Shown: positions 1,699 through 8,282, counted from the stretch's first letter. The stretch is 33,506 nt of DNA from Polyangiaceae bacterium (GCA_009781005.1 WQYX01000045.1:1-33506), one strand, 5' to 3'. The notes: generated by a model not told the origin, from the sequence alone. Program-made: numbers and translations.

Positions 1699-2016
1699 TC
1701 AAGGCACCAAGACACTCTGCGCGAGCGCGATCGCCGCGGTGACGATCACGCCTCCCGCGAGGACGCGCGCGACGCGTGCGGCGTTCGCTTGTGACCAAAC
1801 CCAGACGCAGAAGCCCGCCATCACGCCGAGGTACGCCGCTGTCCACGCGCGCCAGAAATATCCCGCGTGCGGGCTGTAGAAAATGAGCGCCGGATCGGCT
1901 TCGCGAAAGACGAGCGCCTGGCCAATCCGCAAGATCGCGTAGAGCGCGCCAGCGGCTGTCAGTGCCGCGATCGTGACAAGAGCGAGCCGTATGCGGGTGG
2001 GCTGTTGGTCACTCAT
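1699..2016 (-). CDS. Small three-helix membrane protein of the radical SAM operon
   Basis: A 105-residue protein with three hydrophobic segments: about residues 9-37 (LALVTIAALTAAGALYAIL), 57-78 (AAYLGVMAGFCVWVW) and 83-105. It has no enzymatic motif. The ATG at 2014-2016 overlaps the stop of the radical SAM gene (2009-2011) by 8 bases, so it is probably translationally coupled to it and expressed from the same mRNA. No family is recognised. By context it could anchor, export or protect against the product of the operon, but nothing in the sequence decides between these. The stop is TGA at 1699-1701. Confidence 0.7.
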   Translation of the reverse strand: MSDQQPTRIRLALVTIAALTAAGALYAILRIGQALVFREADPALIFYSPHAGYFWRAWTAAYLGVMAGFCVWVWSQANAARVARVLAGGVIVTAAIALAQSVLVP

Positions 2017-3112
2017 GGGTCGAGGCGATACGAGGGCATTCGGGATCCGAATTCAAATTACCGGTAACGAACTCCGAGACGATCTTGCATCCGCCGCGAC
2101 ATACACGAGAAAGCGTGCATGATGCACATGCGTGATCGCGGAAGCGTCGCAAGCCTGGCTCGTCTGCCCAGCCGCGGCGCAGATCGCGGACGTGAAGCGC
2201 AGTAGGGGGTGCGAAGCTGCACGGGGCAACGTGCCCGTCGATGCCTACGGCGCCGAGCGCAGCACCGGCTTGGCAGCCGAAGATGCCCCAGCGCATGAGC
2301 GTCTCGGGATGTTCGTAGAGATCCGCATCTGCCGATAAAAACGGCACGAGCGCGCAGTCGATGCGAAGCCTGAGACGTGCTCCGTGCTCCGCGGTGAGCT
2401 CGCGAAGCAGGCTCCCGAGGCTGCGTGCTTGCGAGAGGGAGAGGCGCTGTGCGAGGTAGTCGAGCGATCGCGCGCGCCCCTGCGGCTTGTACCGAAGCAG
2501 TTGCACTTCGCGCGCGCCGAGCGCGGCTGCGCGTCGGATGGTTTCGCGCACGCGTTCGAACGACGTGCGGGTGAGAACGATGTTGACTCCAACGTTCACG
2601 CCCGATGCCCCGAGCTTCGCGATCACGGATTCGGGCGCGTATGTCTCGCCGATGCCATCATAACTTACGTTGACTTGCGCGAACGCTTTGAGCTGTTCGA
2701 GTTTGCGATCGCCGATGCCGAGTCCGCTCGTTGTCACGACCGGAGTGATGCCGCGATCGTGCGCGGCCTTTGCGAGCATGGCGAGATCGTCGCGCAACGT
2801 TGGCTCGCCACCGCCGAATGCCACGGTGAAGACGCCCGCGTCGCGCAAGGCATCGAGCGCGGCTTCGATCTCGGCGCGCGGAGGTTCGATACCGTCCGGA
2901 CGCGCGTCGATGTAGCAGCCCGCACATCCCGCGGCGCAGCGCGACGTCACGGCGAGGTGAACCTCGATGGGCATGCTCAGATGCCCGTCGTCCGACCAGA
3001 TCGCGCCGCCGTCGAGACCGAGTGTGCGCACGCCGTCGCGATCGAGCGCAACGATCGCCGCCGTGTGTTCGAGCTTCACCCATGCGCCGAACGGCTCGTA
3101 GCGGACGATCAC
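2009..3112 (-). CDS. Radical SAM/SPASM enzyme (putative peptide or small-protein maturase)
   Basis: A 367-residue radical SAM enzyme. Residues 59-66 give CAAGCAGC, a CX3CX2C motif for the SAM-binding [4Fe-4S] cluster, and GGEP is at 101-104. The C-terminus matches the SPASM auxiliary-cluster pattern: C280-X12-G-X4-C298, then C329-X2-C332-X5-C338-X3-C342 and C359. SPASM enzymes commonly modify ribosomally made peptides or enzyme subunits by forming Cys, C-C or thioether links; the substrate here is inferred. The short N-terminal segment (RYEPFGAWVKLEHTAAIV) precedes the barrel and is not an obvious full RRE. The GTG start at 3110-3112 has a GAGGAG ribosome site five bases upstream and overlaps the stop of the small gene (GTGA). 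Classification as radical SAM/SPASM is firm; the substrate is not. Confidence 0.93.
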   Translation of the reverse strand: MIVRYEPFGAWVKLEHTAAIVALDRDGVRTLGLDGGAIWSDDGHLSMPIEVHLAVTSRCAAGCAGCYIDARPDGIEPPRAEIEAALDALRDAGVFTVAFGGGEPTLRDDLAMLAKAAHDRGITPVVTTSGLGIGDRKLEQLKAFAQVNVSYDGIGETYAPESVIAKLGASGVNVGVNIVLTRTSFERVRETIRRAAALGAREVQLLRYKPQGRARSLDYLAQRLSLSQARSLGSLLRELTAEHGARLRLRIDCALVPFLSADADLYEHPETLMRWGIFGCQAGAALGAVGIDGHVAPCSFAPPTALHVRDLRRGWADEPGLRRFRDHACASCTLSRVCRGGCKIVSEFVTGNLNSDPECPRIASTHE

Positions 3113-3357
3113 GGTGCTCCTCGAGGATCGTCAGGAGTCTCGTCGTCGTCGGTCGCAGCGCGATGTTCGTCGTTCCCGACGATGCGCACGGGTTCGTCGC
3201 GCATGGCCGCGCACACGGCCGCGAACACGGCGCCGCCGATCGCCGCGCTCACGAACAGAGTGTCGATGACGCTGCCGACGCTCGAACAGTTCGCGCCGTG
3301 ACCGAGCCGCACCGCAATGACGTGCTCCGGCAAAGGTGTACTCTGTACGTTGCTCAC
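3109..3357 (-). CDS. 82-residue small protein, candidate substrate of the radical SAM enzyme
   Basis: A GTG-started frame that overlaps both neighbours by four bases (GTGA at each end), so all three genes should be co-translated. Visible parts: residues 1-16 form a Pro-containing leader-like stretch (STPLPEHVIAV), 17-35 hold a compact Gly/Ser/Cys block (RLGHGANCSSVGSVIDTLF) with Cys24, 36-52 are a hydrophobic helix (SAAIGGAVFAAVCAA) with Cys49, and 53-82 are a charged acidic, Pro-rich tail. There is no cleavable signal peptide. I do not recognise the family. Its place directly before a SPASM enzyme makes it a plausible modification target, but it could equally be a small membrane partner. Confidence 0.72.
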   Translation of the reverse strand: MSNVQSTPLPEHVIAVRLGHGANCSSVGSVIDTLFVSAAIGGAVFAAVCAAMRDEPVRIVGNDEHRAATDDDETPDDPRGAP

Positions 3358-4367
3358 AGGCCCAGCCCTTCGAGGTACGTCACGTCAACGTGTTCGAGCA
3401 CGAGGAACGCGGCTCCGATGGTTGCGCCTGCGCACACGACGGCGCGCGCCGCACGCGCAGGCATTCGCGGCGATCCGGCGGCGGCCCACACGCGTGCGAC
3501 GAAGAGCACGGCCGCGAGCGCGACACCGAACAAGAGGAAAGGGGTTGCGTTCCCCGTCTCGCTAGTCTCGTAACGCGACGCGAGGAGTCCTCCGGCGATT
3601 CCAACGAACGCGGCGTAGCCAAGGATGAGCGGCGTTGTTTTGCCGAGTGCACACGCGATTGACCGACCGGGCCGCGCGGCCGTCGCGATCGCCCCGATGG
3701 CGAACACGACCATCGCCGCGATCGTCGCGAGGGACGCACGATGGATCAGTAGGCGGCGTCTGAGGCGCGTCAGATCCCGCAGAAGGTTTGGATCCGCGCG
3801 ATCCCCGGCTCGCCGTGCTTCGTCGACCGCTGCACTCATCTCCCCACGCGCAGTGAGCAGCGCCGTGAGATTGCGCGCAGCGGTTTGCGTAGCGAGACGA
3901 GGCGCCATGGGATCTTCGAGGATGCGCCGATCGAGTTTCATCGCGTCGTCGGGGCGGTCGAACCTCTGAGCGTACGCCTCGGCAGCGAGCAACCAGACTT
4001 CGACGCGCACGAGGCCCGGCGGATATGTCTCGGCGCGGGCGACCAATCGATCGAGTTGCGAGAGCTTCGGATCGCGACGCACGCGCTCGAGCTCTTTGAA
4101 TGGCCCGAAGTCGCCTTCAGCATGATCACGAAGCACCGCCGCGCGCGCCTCTGCGAGAGGAGCGCGATCGCTGCTCGGATTGCGCGTGCACACTTCGTCG
4201 TACGCGGTGAGCGCTCGTGCGAAGTCGAACGCAGCGTCGGCGCGCTCGGCTTCTTCATAGAGCGCATCTGCGCTTGCTTCGCCGGCGTCGTTCTCGGCAG
4301 CGCGTGCTCTCGGCACGATGACTATGAACACGACGACGACCAAGATGCATTCGAGCGCGCGCTTCAT
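3354..4367 (-). CDS. Exported TPR-like protein with C-terminal membrane domain
   Basis: I chose the ATG at 4365-4367 because the product then begins with a good signal peptide (MKRALECILVVVVFIVIVPRARA, cleavage near AENDAG); the frame is also open from 4433. The next ~150 residues are helical with TPR-like pairs (ADALYEEAERADAAFDFARA, LLAAEAYAQRFDRPDDAM), probably outside the cytoplasm. About four transmembrane helices follow (LATIAAMVVFAIGAIATAA, LILGYAAFVGIAGGLLA, FLLFGVALAAVLFVARVW, AVVCAGATIGAAFLVLE). Its stop overlaps the start of the small gene by four bases, so it heads the radical SAM operon. The combined TPR and membrane layout would suit a scaffold or export partner; this is inference. 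Confidence 0.75.
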   Translation of the reverse strand: MKRALECILVVVVFIVIVPRARAAENDAGEASADALYEEAERADAAFDFARALTAYDEVCTRNPSSDRAPLAEARAAVLRDHAEGDFGPFKELERVRRDPKLSQLDRLVARAETYPPGLVRVEVWLLAAEAYAQRFDRPDDAMKLDRRILEDPMAPRLATQTAARNLTALLTARGEMSAAVDEARRAGDRADPNLLRDLTRLRRRLLIHRASLATIAAMVVFAIGAIATAARPGRSIACALGKTTPLILGYAAFVGIAGGLLASRYETSETGNATPFLLFGVALAAVLFVARVWAAAGSPRMPARAARAVVCAGATIGAAFLVLEHVDVTYLEGLGL

Positions 4368-4442
4368 ATGCACTCTGCACGTGTTTTCACCGGCACGCGC
4401 GGAAAGGTCACACGCCGCATCGGCGTTGTCCATGGTAGACCG

Positions 4443-4483: not shown

Positions 4484-6319
4484 ATGTCAAAGGGTGCGTT
4501 GAAAAAAGGGGTTGTGATTGCGGCTCTCGCAGCGCTCACGGGCTGCGGGCGCTCGTGCAAAAACGATCGTCCGTATGTTCCGTACACGGTCGACGACGCA
4601 GCACCTTCCGGTGTAACGCCTGCGGCGAGCGCGCAGCCGTTGCCCGCGGACGCAGGCTCCGCGATCGAATTTTCAACGGTGCTGCCTCCGGCAACGATCA
4701 CGTTCAACGCGGGCAACGTCACGCTGCGCGCACCCGCGGGCAGGGAGCTCGCGCTCGTTCTCGTGGTCGATGTCGATGAAGATGGAAAGTCAGACGCGCT
4801 CGCGGTGCTCCGTCCGTCGGCCGACGTGAAGGCGGGGGATGCGCCGCCGAGCGAGCTTGCCTTTTACTCCGGCGCATCGGCACCCGATACGCCACCAACG
4901 ATTCTCGCTTCTGCGCCGCCGTTGCCGATCGGTGCATCATGCACGCCTGTCTTGCGTCTCGAACGCGTCGGGCCGAAATCGGCGGCTGCCGAACTCGGTG
5001 CCGCGTGTCCGACCGCGAGTGCTCAGCGCGGCATCTTCGTGGTGCGCCTCTCGCAAAATCCGGGTGTCGCGTTCGACATGCTCGTGCGCGATCCCGTTTC
5101 TGCACCGAAGCTCGCGATCGATGTCGACGGCGCCGATCGCGATCACGACGGTATCGACGACGTCACGCTGCTCGTCACCATCGACGGCGGCGGCCCGCCT
5201 TTCGAACCCGGACCAAAGCTCACGGCGAAGGTTGCATTTTTCGATCGGAGCGCGGGACTTAGCCGCGATCCGGGCGAGCCCGAGGCATCGCTCAAAGCCA
5301 TTGCCGCGCAAGCCACCGCACGTGCGCAGAGGAGCAAAGACGCTGCGTCGGTGCCCGTGCTCGTGCAGCAGATGCGCGCGCTCTATCGGGCCATTTGTGA
5401 TGAGGGTGGCGCGCCGCGTTTCGTGAAGGCACCCGGCGGTGGAGGCGCCGTCGCGTGCGGCACGAGCAAACCCCTCGAAGATGCGGGCGTCGCCGAGGTT
5501 CGCGCGTACGTCGCGTTGGGCAACGCACTTGCCGCGGTGACCGCGGCGGAGGTGGCGCAGCTTCCACCCGCGACGAAAACCGCGGCAAAGACGACGGAGC
5601 TCTCGCAGCTTCTCGAGCAGATTGCGCCCGTCTCGCAGGCCACGAGCGTGCGCACGCTGACGGCGACCGTCGCGAAGACGCGTGCGGCGCATCCGGCGTG
5701 GGGACCGCTCGCGTTCGAGGCGAGCGGCAAGCTGCTCGTTCGTGGCGGCACGAACGTCGTGCGCGTCGATCCCGAGTCGGGCGAAGAGACGATCGCGGAC
5801 GTCGCTCCGTGGCCTTCGCAGGTCCTCTCGCCCGACGGCAAGAGCCGCTGGCTCGAGGCGTATCACGCGTGCGAGGGCGTTGCGCTCCGCACCACCTTCG
5901 TGAACGACACAGATGGCGACTTGAAAGACGTGCTTTTGCCCATCGCGCCGGTGCTCGGCGCGCGCTGCTCTGGGGCACGCGGAGAAGCCGCTGTCGCGGT
6001 GCCGCTCGCGTGGACTTCGCGCGGGCTCGAAGCCGTTGTCGCGGGCGAGCTGCTCCTGATCCGTCCCGAATCGGCGCGGGCAACGATCCTCGCCTCCACT
6101 CTCGATGAGCCTCCGCCTCTTGGATCAGCGCGCTCGCCAAACGGCAAAATGTTCGCGGTGCCAGTTCGCGACAGCGTTCTCGTTCGCGGCGCGCGCTCAT
6201 GGCGCGCTCGCGCTCCCGAGCTCGAGCCCTACACGGCTCTTCGCGGCTGCACGGTGAGCGACGACGGCACCCACCTCGCCTGCGAGTCGCGCGGCAAAGT
6301 TTTGGTTGCAACCTTTTAG
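4484..6319 (+). CDS. Large lipoprotein with Asp-rich calcium-type repeats
   Basis: A 611-residue protein with a lipoprotein signal peptide (IAALAALTGC, lipidated Cys21) and then a Pro/Ala-rich linker. Three Asp-rich loops resemble FG-GAP or dockerin-type calcium sites: DVDEDGKSDALAV (near 90-102), DVDGADRDHDGIDDV (near 213-227) and VNDTDGDLKDVLL (near 475). The C-terminal 220 residues contain short strands of the type seen in beta-propellers (LLVRGGTNVVRVDPESGEE, SQVLSPDGKSRW), so a secreted, membrane-anchored propeller is plausible. No catalytic motif or named family is recognised. It is convergent with the next gene, and the two stops are only 26 bases apart. Confidence 0.8.
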   Translation: MSKGALKKGVVIAALAALTGCGRSCKNDRPYVPYTVDDAAPSGVTPAASAQPLPADAGSAIEFSTVLPPATITFNAGNVTLRAPAGRELALVLVVDVDEDGKSDALAVLRPSADVKAGDAPPSELAFYSGASAPDTPPTILASAPPLPIGASCTPVLRLERVGPKSAAAELGAACPTASAQRGIFVVRLSQNPGVAFDMLVRDPVSAPKLAIDVDGADRDHDGIDDVTLLVTIDGGGPPFEPGPKLTAKVAFFDRSAGLSRDPGEPEASLKAIAAQATARAQRSKDAASVPVLVQQMRALYRAICDEGGAPRFVKAPGGGGAVACGTSKPLEDAGVAEVRAYVALGNALAAVTAAEVAQLPPATKTAAKTTELSQLLEQIAPVSQATSVRTLTATVAKTRAAHPAWGPLAFEASGKLLVRGGTNVVRVDPESGEETIADVAPWPSQVLSPDGKSRWLEAYHACEGVALRTTFVNDTDGDLKDVLLPIAPVLGARCSGARGEAAVAVPLAWTSRGLEAVVAGELLLIRPESARATILASTLDEPPPLGSARSPNGKMFAVPVRDSVLVRGARSWRARAPELEPYTALRGCTVSDDGTHLACESRGKVLVATF

Positions 6320-6345: not shown

Positions 6346-8076
6346 TCACTTCACGAGGACGTTGTTGATCGGCTTCACGCTCATGCCACCCGGGTACGCG
6401 TAGCTCACGGCCGAATCCCAGCCCCAAATCGTGATGCCGAACGGCGCATCGCTCTTTATTTCGTGTCGACCATTATCGCACTTGCCTTGGGGCTCGAAGT
6501 TGCCTGTCACGAGATCCGTGCGCGTGTATTCATAATCGCCGCTGCTGCCAACAGGCATCCACCCGGCCAGCGGGCCGTCGGCGCAATCGAGCATGACGTC
6601 ATGAAAGACGCCGTCGTCGCCCTTGGCACGAACGAGCACGAGGTTCGTTTCAGGATACGTTGGATCGGTGAAGAAGATATACGAGCTCTGAAATTCCTTT
6701 GCGGGCACGACGTTCACGAATTCCGGGTCGCCGGTACAGCCTAGAGGGGTGGATGTATCCAAAAGATGGCAGCCCGTCATGTGAGCGGAAACATAAATGG
6801 GGTGATCGGCGTCCTGAGATTTGACGACGTAGGGCCCTGCGCCGTCGAACTGGGCGAGCTGGCCTTTGCTCAGCGTGGTCGGCGCGCCATCAGGGACTGC
6901 GGGCTCCCAGGTCAGCACCGTGCCGTCCACCAACCCCATGATGCGCCACGGCGGAGTCTCCTCCGCCGTCCCCGGAATTCGATTGCGATAACGGACGAGT
7001 GCATATTCGCTTCCCAGTACCTTGACGGGCGGAATCTGTTGATGTGCGGAATCGCAGGTCCCAACGTTGCTTGGAATGTCGACGCACGTCATGCTCGACC
7101 ACATGCCAATAGGCTTGTTCGATTGAATCGCGCTCCCATCGAGCGAATACTCGTTCGGTTGTTCGAACAAAATCATCTGCCCTCGATCGAGGTTGTAGGT
7201 GGTCGGCGTGCCTGCGGTTGCAGCACTTACGCCGGGTCCACCCAAAATGTCTTTCGCCGGCAAAATCGTGATCTGCGTTCCATCTTGCGCGGCGACGAAG
7301 TGAGTTACTCCAGGCGATACGTTCACTTCGAACGGGCTTATCGCAACGTAATTCGTATCCCAAGATGCCGTGGGAAGAAGCAGTGTGGCGCTCGTGAAGG
7401 CGGCTGATTCGCCGCCGTAAGGATAAATGTCATAGGCCGCAACGGGACGGTCCGTGGCCAGACGATCGCCGTACGAAAGGCGGGTGCCGCTGCCTTGGTT
7501 GAGTCCGGCGCTCGCGGTGCCGGCCGGGCAATAGTTACCTGACAAGAAAACGATGGCAATACTACCTGCCGGGATCTGGTTGTCGGCGATTGGCGTGTAC
7601 GTGGTTGCCTGCCCGCTTCCTGACGGGATGAACGCAATCTTGGAGATGTCAAGCGGCTTTCCGTTGTAATCGCCGGAAAGCGTAACGGGCGAATTCCACG
7701 TATTCGCGATGAATGCCGCAAAGCAGTCGATGGAATTAGAGGAGACGGCATTATCGGGAGGAACGGCGTAGAACTCGCAGCCGACACTTCCACGGTCCGC
7801 CGCGGCGCTCGCACACGCATCTGTGCAAGCGGTCGTGCGTGTGTCGCAACCTTCCGAGTCTGCGCAGCTCTGAAGGAGATTGCCGTTGCAGTCGAGGACG
7901 GAATGGCGATCGGACGAGCAACGATTCTCACACTGCGGTGGGCTGAGAAAGCCGCCGTCGTTGGCAAAAGGATCCACCACGGCCGGATCCGTGTCATCAG
8001 TGCCCTTGCATCCGTGAAGGCCAATCAAGAGAAGGGATGAGGACATCAAAAGAGCGATGCTGGTCGGATGACGCAT
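6346..8076 (-). CDS. IgGFc-binding-like surface lipoprotein
   Basis: The start is the ATG at 8074-8076, preceded by AAAGGAGTG, a strong ribosome site; the frame upstream to 8133 is not needed. The 576-residue product has a lipoprotein signal (SLLLIGLHGC, Cys23) and then a Cys-rich module near 45-90 (CENRCSSDRHSVLDCNG, CDTRTTACTDAC). Most of the rest has the character of the IgGFc-binding N-terminal domain family seen in many myxobacterial secreted proteins (EFYAVPPDNA, DRPVAAYDIYPYGG, PVKVLGSEYALVRY). In this lineage the domain's ligand is unknown and immunoglobulin binding is only the family name. The protein is probably displayed at the cell surface. Family call moderate, lipoprotein call strong. 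Confidence 0.78.
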   Translation of the reverse strand: MRHPTSIALLMSSSLLLIGLHGCKGTDDTDPAVVDPFANDGGFLSPPQCENRCSSDRHSVLDCNGNLLQSCADSEGCDTRTTACTDACASAAADRGSVGCEFYAVPPDNAVSSNSIDCFAAFIANTWNSPVTLSGDYNGKPLDISKIAFIPSGSGQATTYTPIADNQIPAGSIAIVFLSGNYCPAGTASAGLNQGSGTRLSYGDRLATDRPVAAYDIYPYGGESAAFTSATLLLPTASWDTNYVAISPFEVNVSPGVTHFVAAQDGTQITILPAKDILGGPGVSAATAGTPTTYNLDRGQMILFEQPNEYSLDGSAIQSNKPIGMWSSMTCVDIPSNVGTCDSAHQQIPPVKVLGSEYALVRYRNRIPGTAEETPPWRIMGLVDGTVLTWEPAVPDGAPTTLSKGQLAQFDGAGPYVVKSQDADHPIYVSAHMTGCHLLDTSTPLGCTGDPEFVNVVPAKEFQSSYIFFTDPTYPETNLVLVRAKGDDGVFHDVMLDCADGPLAGWMPVGSSGDYEYTRTDLVTGNFEPQGKCDNGRHEIKSDAPFGITIWGWDSAVSYAYPGGMSVKPINNVLVK

Positions 8077-8282
8077 GAAAAGCACTCCTTTCAAGCGAGA
8101 TGGGCGCCTCGTCAGAGGCCTGCCGAATACCAACCAAGCATGTCGTGTACCGTACGCGCCCTTTCGTCGCCGACAACGATCAGGTCAACGTCAACGAAAC
8201 GTGAACGTGATCGTAGTCGTGGTCGTTGACCGCGACGGCGACGAACTGCTCGGGAGCGAGGCGTTGAGGCAGCCGTCCACCC

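Follow-up and report, generated by a model that had tools for sequence, protein, structure and literature searches.

Gene organization of the locus

Is a protein of 82 amino acids, encoded directly ahead of a radical SAM enzyme of the SPASM type, the substrate of that enzyme, or does it serve the enzyme in some other way? The question is raised by an operon in a 33,506-nucleotide stretch of Polyangiaceae bacterium DNA (GCA_009781005.1, WQYX01000045.1:1-33506), referred to here as the window. Gene calling placed four minus-strand genes in one operon, with overlaps of 4 (GTGA), 4 (GTGA), and 8 bases, exactly as described in an earlier reading of the DNA (the sequence-only reading). These genes encode a TPR/TM protein with a signal peptide, a TPR region, and several TM helices (3354..4367); the 82-amino acid small membrane protein, SM (3109..3357), whose gene has a GTG start and a GTGA overlap at each end and agrees with the protein sequence quoted earlier; the SPASM radical SAM enzyme of 367 amino acids (2009..3112); and TM3, a membrane protein of 105 amino acids with near-invariant Tyr, Arg, and Trp-Arg residues (1699..2016). 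The open frame of the TPR/TM gene covers 3354-4433, and the ATG at 4367 gives the start with the signal peptide. Both GTGA overlaps are of the stop/start type, which suggests translational coupling at the two 4-base junctions. With dN/dS values of ~0.16 for SM and ~0.19 for the SPASM enzyme relative to a same-genus relative, conservation of the two at the codon level exceeds chance.

Sequence features of the SPASM enzyme

The enzyme scored 55.2 bits against the Radical_SAM model PF04055 (cut-off of 29.5) and 31.4 bits against the SPASM domain model TIGR04085 (cut-off of 27), and it is therefore a SPASM member of the radical SAM superfamily. The radical SAM cluster motif CX3CX2C is formed by Cys59, Cys63, and Cys66 (2915..2938, minus strand; invariant in 74/74). 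The region at 2036..2275 (minus strand) reads C280-X12-G-X4-C298 ... C329-X2-C332-X5-C338-X3-C342 ... C359 and conforms to the described seven-Cys SPASM motif, CX9-15GX4C-gap-CX2CX5CX3C-gap-C (PMC6231123). A complete seven-Cys pattern had been proposed for the enzyme beforehand; all seven residues proved invariant in relatives, and an eighth invariant cysteine, Cys253, was found in the linker (codon at 2354..2356, minus strand); the window enzyme thus has 11 cysteines, none of which varies across an alignment of 74 sequences. In SuiB, Aux I takes its first ligand from a linker cysteine (PMC6231123), and Cys253 may by analogy fill this role, in which case Aux I would be fully ligated. A critical active-site Cys acts as the hydrogen donor in radical SAM epimerases of the EpeE type (PMC8326336), but an epimerase reading of Cys253 is not favoured because the SuiB linker Cys ligates Aux I.

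The nearest NCBIfam models were those for MftC (69.9 bits, cut-off of 265), GeoRSP (67.3, cut-off of 400), and PqqE (64.4, cut-off of 381), and none of these equivalog cut-offs was reached; PqqA and MftA are also unlike SM in sequence. The system thus belongs to no named family, and no clade whose substrate is known takes in the enzyme, in keeping with the earlier remark that the locus fitted no RiPP class that could be named. Two further assignments were considered and set aside: the radical SAM core showed generic viperin similarity only, which does not make this a defence system, and nothing convincing connected the locus to a phage family.

The window enzyme lacks ten residues at 2638/2639 (minus strand), where its nearest relative reads YA-KVRGFGGAAA-AES. 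The missing loop contains an Arg-Gly pair whose residues are retained in 72 and 70 of the 74 aligned sequences, respectively. This absence is either an in-frame loss or an assembly error, and without the conserved loop the window's own enzyme may be impaired, with selection on it still appearing purifying (dN/dS of ~0.19).

A conserved loop motif in SM

SM contains a near-invariant motif, GxxxN[C/S]S[S/A]xG, ahead of a hydrophobic helix. The helix (residues 27-52; 3202..3279, minus strand) has a mean hydropathy of 1.9-2.2 and is a probable membrane segment; the charge flanking it does not settle membrane topology. The tail that follows is variable across relatives and is acidic in the window. 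The conserved part of SM consists of residues 17-35, RLGHGANCSSVGSVIDTLF (3253..3309, minus strand), the same residues that the sequence-only reading had selected for an alignment. That reading had also singled out Cys24 and Cys49, whereas the residues found to be invariant among 83 aligned SM proteins were Asn23 and Ser25, with Gly19 and Gly28 nearly so. Position 24 is occupied by Cys in 68/83 and by Ser in 15/83, and only 9/83 have Cys at position 49. In two additional SM proteins (L175 and L194), the Asn is replaced by a different residue. The loop motif is thus as invariant as the cluster cysteines of the enzyme, whereas the tail varies.

SM matched no Pfam or NCBIfam family, either alone or as 25 aligned relatives, and among solved structures none resembled it by sequence. 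Literature searches yielded no match for the SM motif strings or for an SM-SPASM system.

Co-occurrence of SM and the enzyme

Among 379 Myxococcota genomes drawn evenly, 83 contained the enzyme family, with all scores at least 236 bits and the next-best SPASM protein at 184 bits, a clean separation. A first SM profile matched 71 of the 83 enzyme-bearing genomes and gave only six weak stray matches elsewhere. A second profile that included the Ser-type SM was run on the enzyme-bearing genomes without a first-profile match and added nine, bringing the total to 80 of 83. As for the other three genomes, the enzyme match starts at a contig edge in G145 and G201, and in G027 the enzyme is represented by no more than a fragment, at the end of a contig. 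SM without the enzyme was found in none of the 379 genomes, and the two occur at approximately 1:1. Separate searches for relatives with SM and with the enzyme repeatedly matched neighbouring coordinates. The sequence-only reading had supposed that SM would be conserved together with its SPASM clade, and these counts bear it out. Of the two outcomes that it gave as refuting its view, absence of SM beside the SPASM gene in relatives and a SPASM clade with a known, unrelated substrate, neither was encountered. Judged by their distribution, the small protein and its SPASM enzyme have been conserved together across Myxococcota as a pair not described before. Outside the sample, a plasmid search gave no SM match, with the best SPASM relatives being ~29% identical, and a genome-contig scan, which finds close relatives only, yielded two loci.

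The genome is high in GC and contains many spurious open reading frames, and SM might accordingly be a chance frame in a high-GC overlap region. The probability of this is negligible: the phylum-wide conservation, the dN/dS of ~0.16, the fusions described below, and the co-occurrence (Fisher p of ~1e-56 at the first pass, uncorrected for relatedness) refute it.

Separate and fused forms of SM

SM is fused to the enzyme as its NH2-terminal domain in 33 of 85 SM loci. In another 33 it is separate and lies directly upstream of the enzyme, with a gap of -8 to 65 bases between the SM stop codon and the enzyme match; several Ser-type SM genes are among those directly upstream. In the remaining 19, SM is farther off or on the other strand, or the enzyme is not in the stretch fetched. 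When the tree was computed from the enzyme portion only, fusion required four changes, at least three of which are forced by supported branches, whereas a single change explained the Cys/Ser exchange at position 24; as the tree is rooted in the drawing, the Ser type occupies the basal branches.

In family f14 (L174 3924-5173, L178 2933-4200, and L179 4022-6634), a Ser-type SM gene comes immediately after a gene for a TRAP-type DctP protein, TAtT or DctQ/DctM genes lie alongside, and the SPASM enzyme is encoded elsewhere in the genome. The SM-SPASM fusion of genome G112 (L188 3350-4393) loses its frame ahead of the last SPASM cysteines, and in a search of that genome the fusion match reads on through two stops; this fusion may be decaying.

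Structure models of SM-enzyme fusions

Structure models were obtained with AF2 for two natural fusions: L071, the one closest to the window (pLDDT of 92.5, pTM of 0.92), and L158, a distant one modeled with an alignment of fusions only (91.1 and 0.91). Both models show the same order of elements: a strand, the N-C-S loop, a short second strand or bridge, the hydrophobic helix, an RRE-like unit, the barrel, and the SPASM region. SM packs on the enzyme in both, with moderate confidence in the SM loop (60-70). The NH2-terminal unit of the enzyme (2993..3112 in the window, minus strand) is predicted to consist of three strands and, after them, one or two short helices, and we therefore call it RRE-like only. 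The earlier statement that the locus has no RRE protein thus needs qualification, in that the enzyme itself begins with an RRE-like, albeit truncated, beta-beta-beta-alpha unit. In the first model, the SM strand may be docked in a leader-like manner on the RRE-like sheet, as it was initially read, but the second model permits a hairpin within SM instead.

The best match among solved structures was the streptide maturase SuiB with SuiA (PDB code 5v1t; Z of 27.6 and 29.4, rmsd of 3.8 and 3.5, 374 residues), followed by the sporulation killing factor sactisynthase SkfB (PDB code 6efn; Z of 27.3 and 28.0), and both matches take in the NH2-terminal peptide-binding region of the known enzyme. Alignments with NifB start at SM residues 17 and 7 in the two models, on NifB residue 13 or 24, and those with HydE start at SM residues 32 and 22, on HydE residue 39; in each case the starts differ by exactly 10 residues, which equals the shift of the motif between the models. 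Alignments with PFL-AE start near the SM motif. Given that the NifB and HydE alignments begin at corresponding SM positions in both models, we infer from the alignment ranges that SM is probably placed against the barrel.

SuiB has a full SPASM domain in common with the window enzyme, and its Aux I-ligating linker Cys has a counterpart in the invariant Cys253 of the SM-linked family, but the two enzymes are only ~20% identical. SuiA, moreover, is the precursor of a secreted peptide with a Lys-Trp crosslink, whereas SM has no conserved Lys-Trp, contains a hydrophobic helix, and often forms a single polypeptide with its enzyme. SkfB differs in having a one-cluster Twitch domain and in forming a Cys thioether, in contrast to the full SPASM domain and Ser-replaceable Cys of the window family. 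The SPASM fold is also shared with the anaerobic sulfatase-maturating enzyme (anSME; PDB code 4k39, Z of ~24-25). Enzymes of the latter type act on Cys or Ser within a protein, and the exchange at SM position 24 would permit the same choice; the SM locus, however, has no sulfatase motif or sulfatase gene, and the partner protein is a different one. The separate and fused arrangements of SM resemble those of borosins, whose precursor is fused to, or encoded beside, the modifying enzyme (PMC8429565). Borosin enzymes are methyltransferases rather than radical SAM proteins, however, and act on a RiPP core peptide with no membrane helix or membrane partners.

Membrane partners

The TPR/TM gene lies directly upstream of SM in 60/64 loci and TM3 lies directly downstream in 56/58; conservation analysis revealed no catalytic-looking invariant residues in either protein. 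In many cassettes, TM3 is followed by a gene for a protein of ~150 amino acids with probably four TM helices (4TM); this protein was found in 36 loci in all, among them L150 1956-2408 and L192 5061-5507. In the genome of the window this gene is on another contig (L216 6160-6606; G000:C103, minus strand), unlinked to the cassette. The 4TM protein matched no Pfam family and is an undescribed membrane protein, with invariant His, Tyr, Arg, Lys, and Glu residues (HG...HP...Y..YR...K...FExKEH) that are possible metal or heme ligands.

Relatives at the class level hold SM and the enzyme only, sometimes together with the TPR gene, and lack TM3 and 4TM. SM and the enzyme are therefore the core of the system, and neither TM3 nor 4TM is a general substrate. 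Conversely, some loci in which no enzyme gene is adjacent (L095 and L190/L233) still keep TPR/TM, SM, TM3, and 4TM side by side. No recurrent peptidase or exporter family was seen among the genes linked to the cassettes.

Possible roles of SM

The invariant loop motif, strict co-occurrence, apparent coupling, and fusion lead us to conclude that SM works with the SPASM enzyme. Given that the relatives in fold are peptide modifiers and that the motif is target-like, a substrate role is the leading reading, and it is quite possible that SM remains in a membrane complex and has its N-[C/S]-S loop modified by the enzyme. The two proteins would then be a dedicated substrate-maturase pair at the membrane, with the NH2-terminal strand and N-[C/S]-S loop of SM presented to the radical SAM barrel either by a separate, coupled SM or in cis by a fused domain. 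The enzyme would act on the Asn-Cys/Ser-Ser loop, and both the modification and the modified atom are conjectural. The chemistry would have to suit Cys or Ser, as would a Cys thioether or Ser ether crosslink or an anSME-like oxidation of Cys or Ser. With either residue at position 24, thioether-only sactipeptide chemistry would not fit; a thioether on Cys24 was rejected as the general chemistry on account of the Ser-type SM proteins of the basal branches, the window SM itself having Cys. The modified SM would not be exported as a peptide but would probably be retained by its hydrophobic helix, as one component of an assembly in the membrane that includes TPR/TM, TM3, and often the His/Glu-containing 4TM protein. 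The retention of the SM cassette in loci without an adjacent enzyme is expected for a complex matured in trans. A difficulty arises from topology: if the helix spans the membrane in the fusions, the motif would lie opposite the cytosolic enzyme.

Our analysis suggests an unnamed and undescribed membrane-bound protein-modification system of Myxococcota. Such a SPASM system would extend across the phylum and would combine a small partner of its own, a candidate target motif in which Cys and Ser are interchangeable, and natural fusions in cis; SPASM enzymes of unknown substrate seldom come with so clear a candidate. If SM is both modified and retained, radical SAM maturation would reach small membrane subunits, beyond exported peptides and soluble enzymes.

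The main alternative, of which we are somewhat more doubtful, is that SM is an unmodified subunit or domain that anchors the enzyme to the membrane or activates it, with its loop docked on the barrel and the substrate being TM3, TPR/TM, 4TM, a lipid, or a cofactor. The hydrophobic helix, the packing of SM on the enzyme in both models, and the conserved membrane partners at hand are all consistent with such a role, and the 1:1 occurrence and repeated NH2-terminal fusion fit it as well, the fusions being explained at least as readily as by modification of SM. An anchor, however, would not need an invariant Asn-x-Ser loop; the pair persists in class-level relatives that lack TM3 and 4TM; and SM of the f14 genomes is encoded next to TRAP transporter genes, a long way from the enzyme. 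It is rather unlikely that the enzyme matures its own membrane-embedded NH2-terminal domain, or the split counterpart thereof, by converting the loop in cis to a crosslink or protein-derived cofactor for the assembly of TM3, TPR/TM, and the His/Glu-rich 4TM protein; if true, this would be a radical SAM counterpart of the fused and split borosins in which the product is retained and functional.

The sequence-only reading had recognized the usual layout of a RiPP maturation cassette. In a conventional RiPP pathway, SM would be the precursor of a small product, released by cleavage after modification and then exported, and the membrane proteins would have transporter or immunity functions. SM does have the hallmark of a small gene stacked on, and conserved with, that for a modifying enzyme, and three enzymes of related fold, SuiB, SkfB, and CteB, mature RiPPs. 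This assignment nevertheless appears weak and is improbable, given the 33 in-frame fusions, the 1:1 occurrence, the hydrophobic helix, the presence of Ser instead of Cys24 on basal branches, and the lack of a recurrent peptidase or exporter family nearby; a motif frozen across the phylum is also unlike a product under diversifying selection. Highly improbable, finally, is an adaptor function in which SM would bind an unlinked third partner, the actual substrate, and pass it on to the enzyme. The truncated RRE-like unit and the strand that SM adds beside this unit or the barrel would be in keeping with such a function, but a third small gene was not seen to recur beside the pair.

Other genes adjoining the cassettes

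In the window, a divergent gene at 4484-6319 (plus strand) encodes a lipoprotein-like protein of 611 amino acids with no Pfam match, homologues of which adjoin 14 cassettes, and the product of the gene at 6346-8133 (minus strand) matches the IgGFc_binding domain strongly (PF17517, E of 1e-89). Purple acid phosphatase-like genes adjoin 14 cassettes in distant families (for example, L168 6534-7796 and L154 5240-6496), and Porin_O_P-like genes adjoin nine, also across distant families; these phosphatase and porin neighbours possibly reflect a link to phosphate. At L222 5811-6620, the SPASM gene is followed by a gene for a PF03618 kinase/pyrophosphorylase of the PPDK/PEP synthase regulator type, and PF03618-like genes also follow the SPASM gene in four other loci of class-level relatives (L217, L218, L220, and L225).
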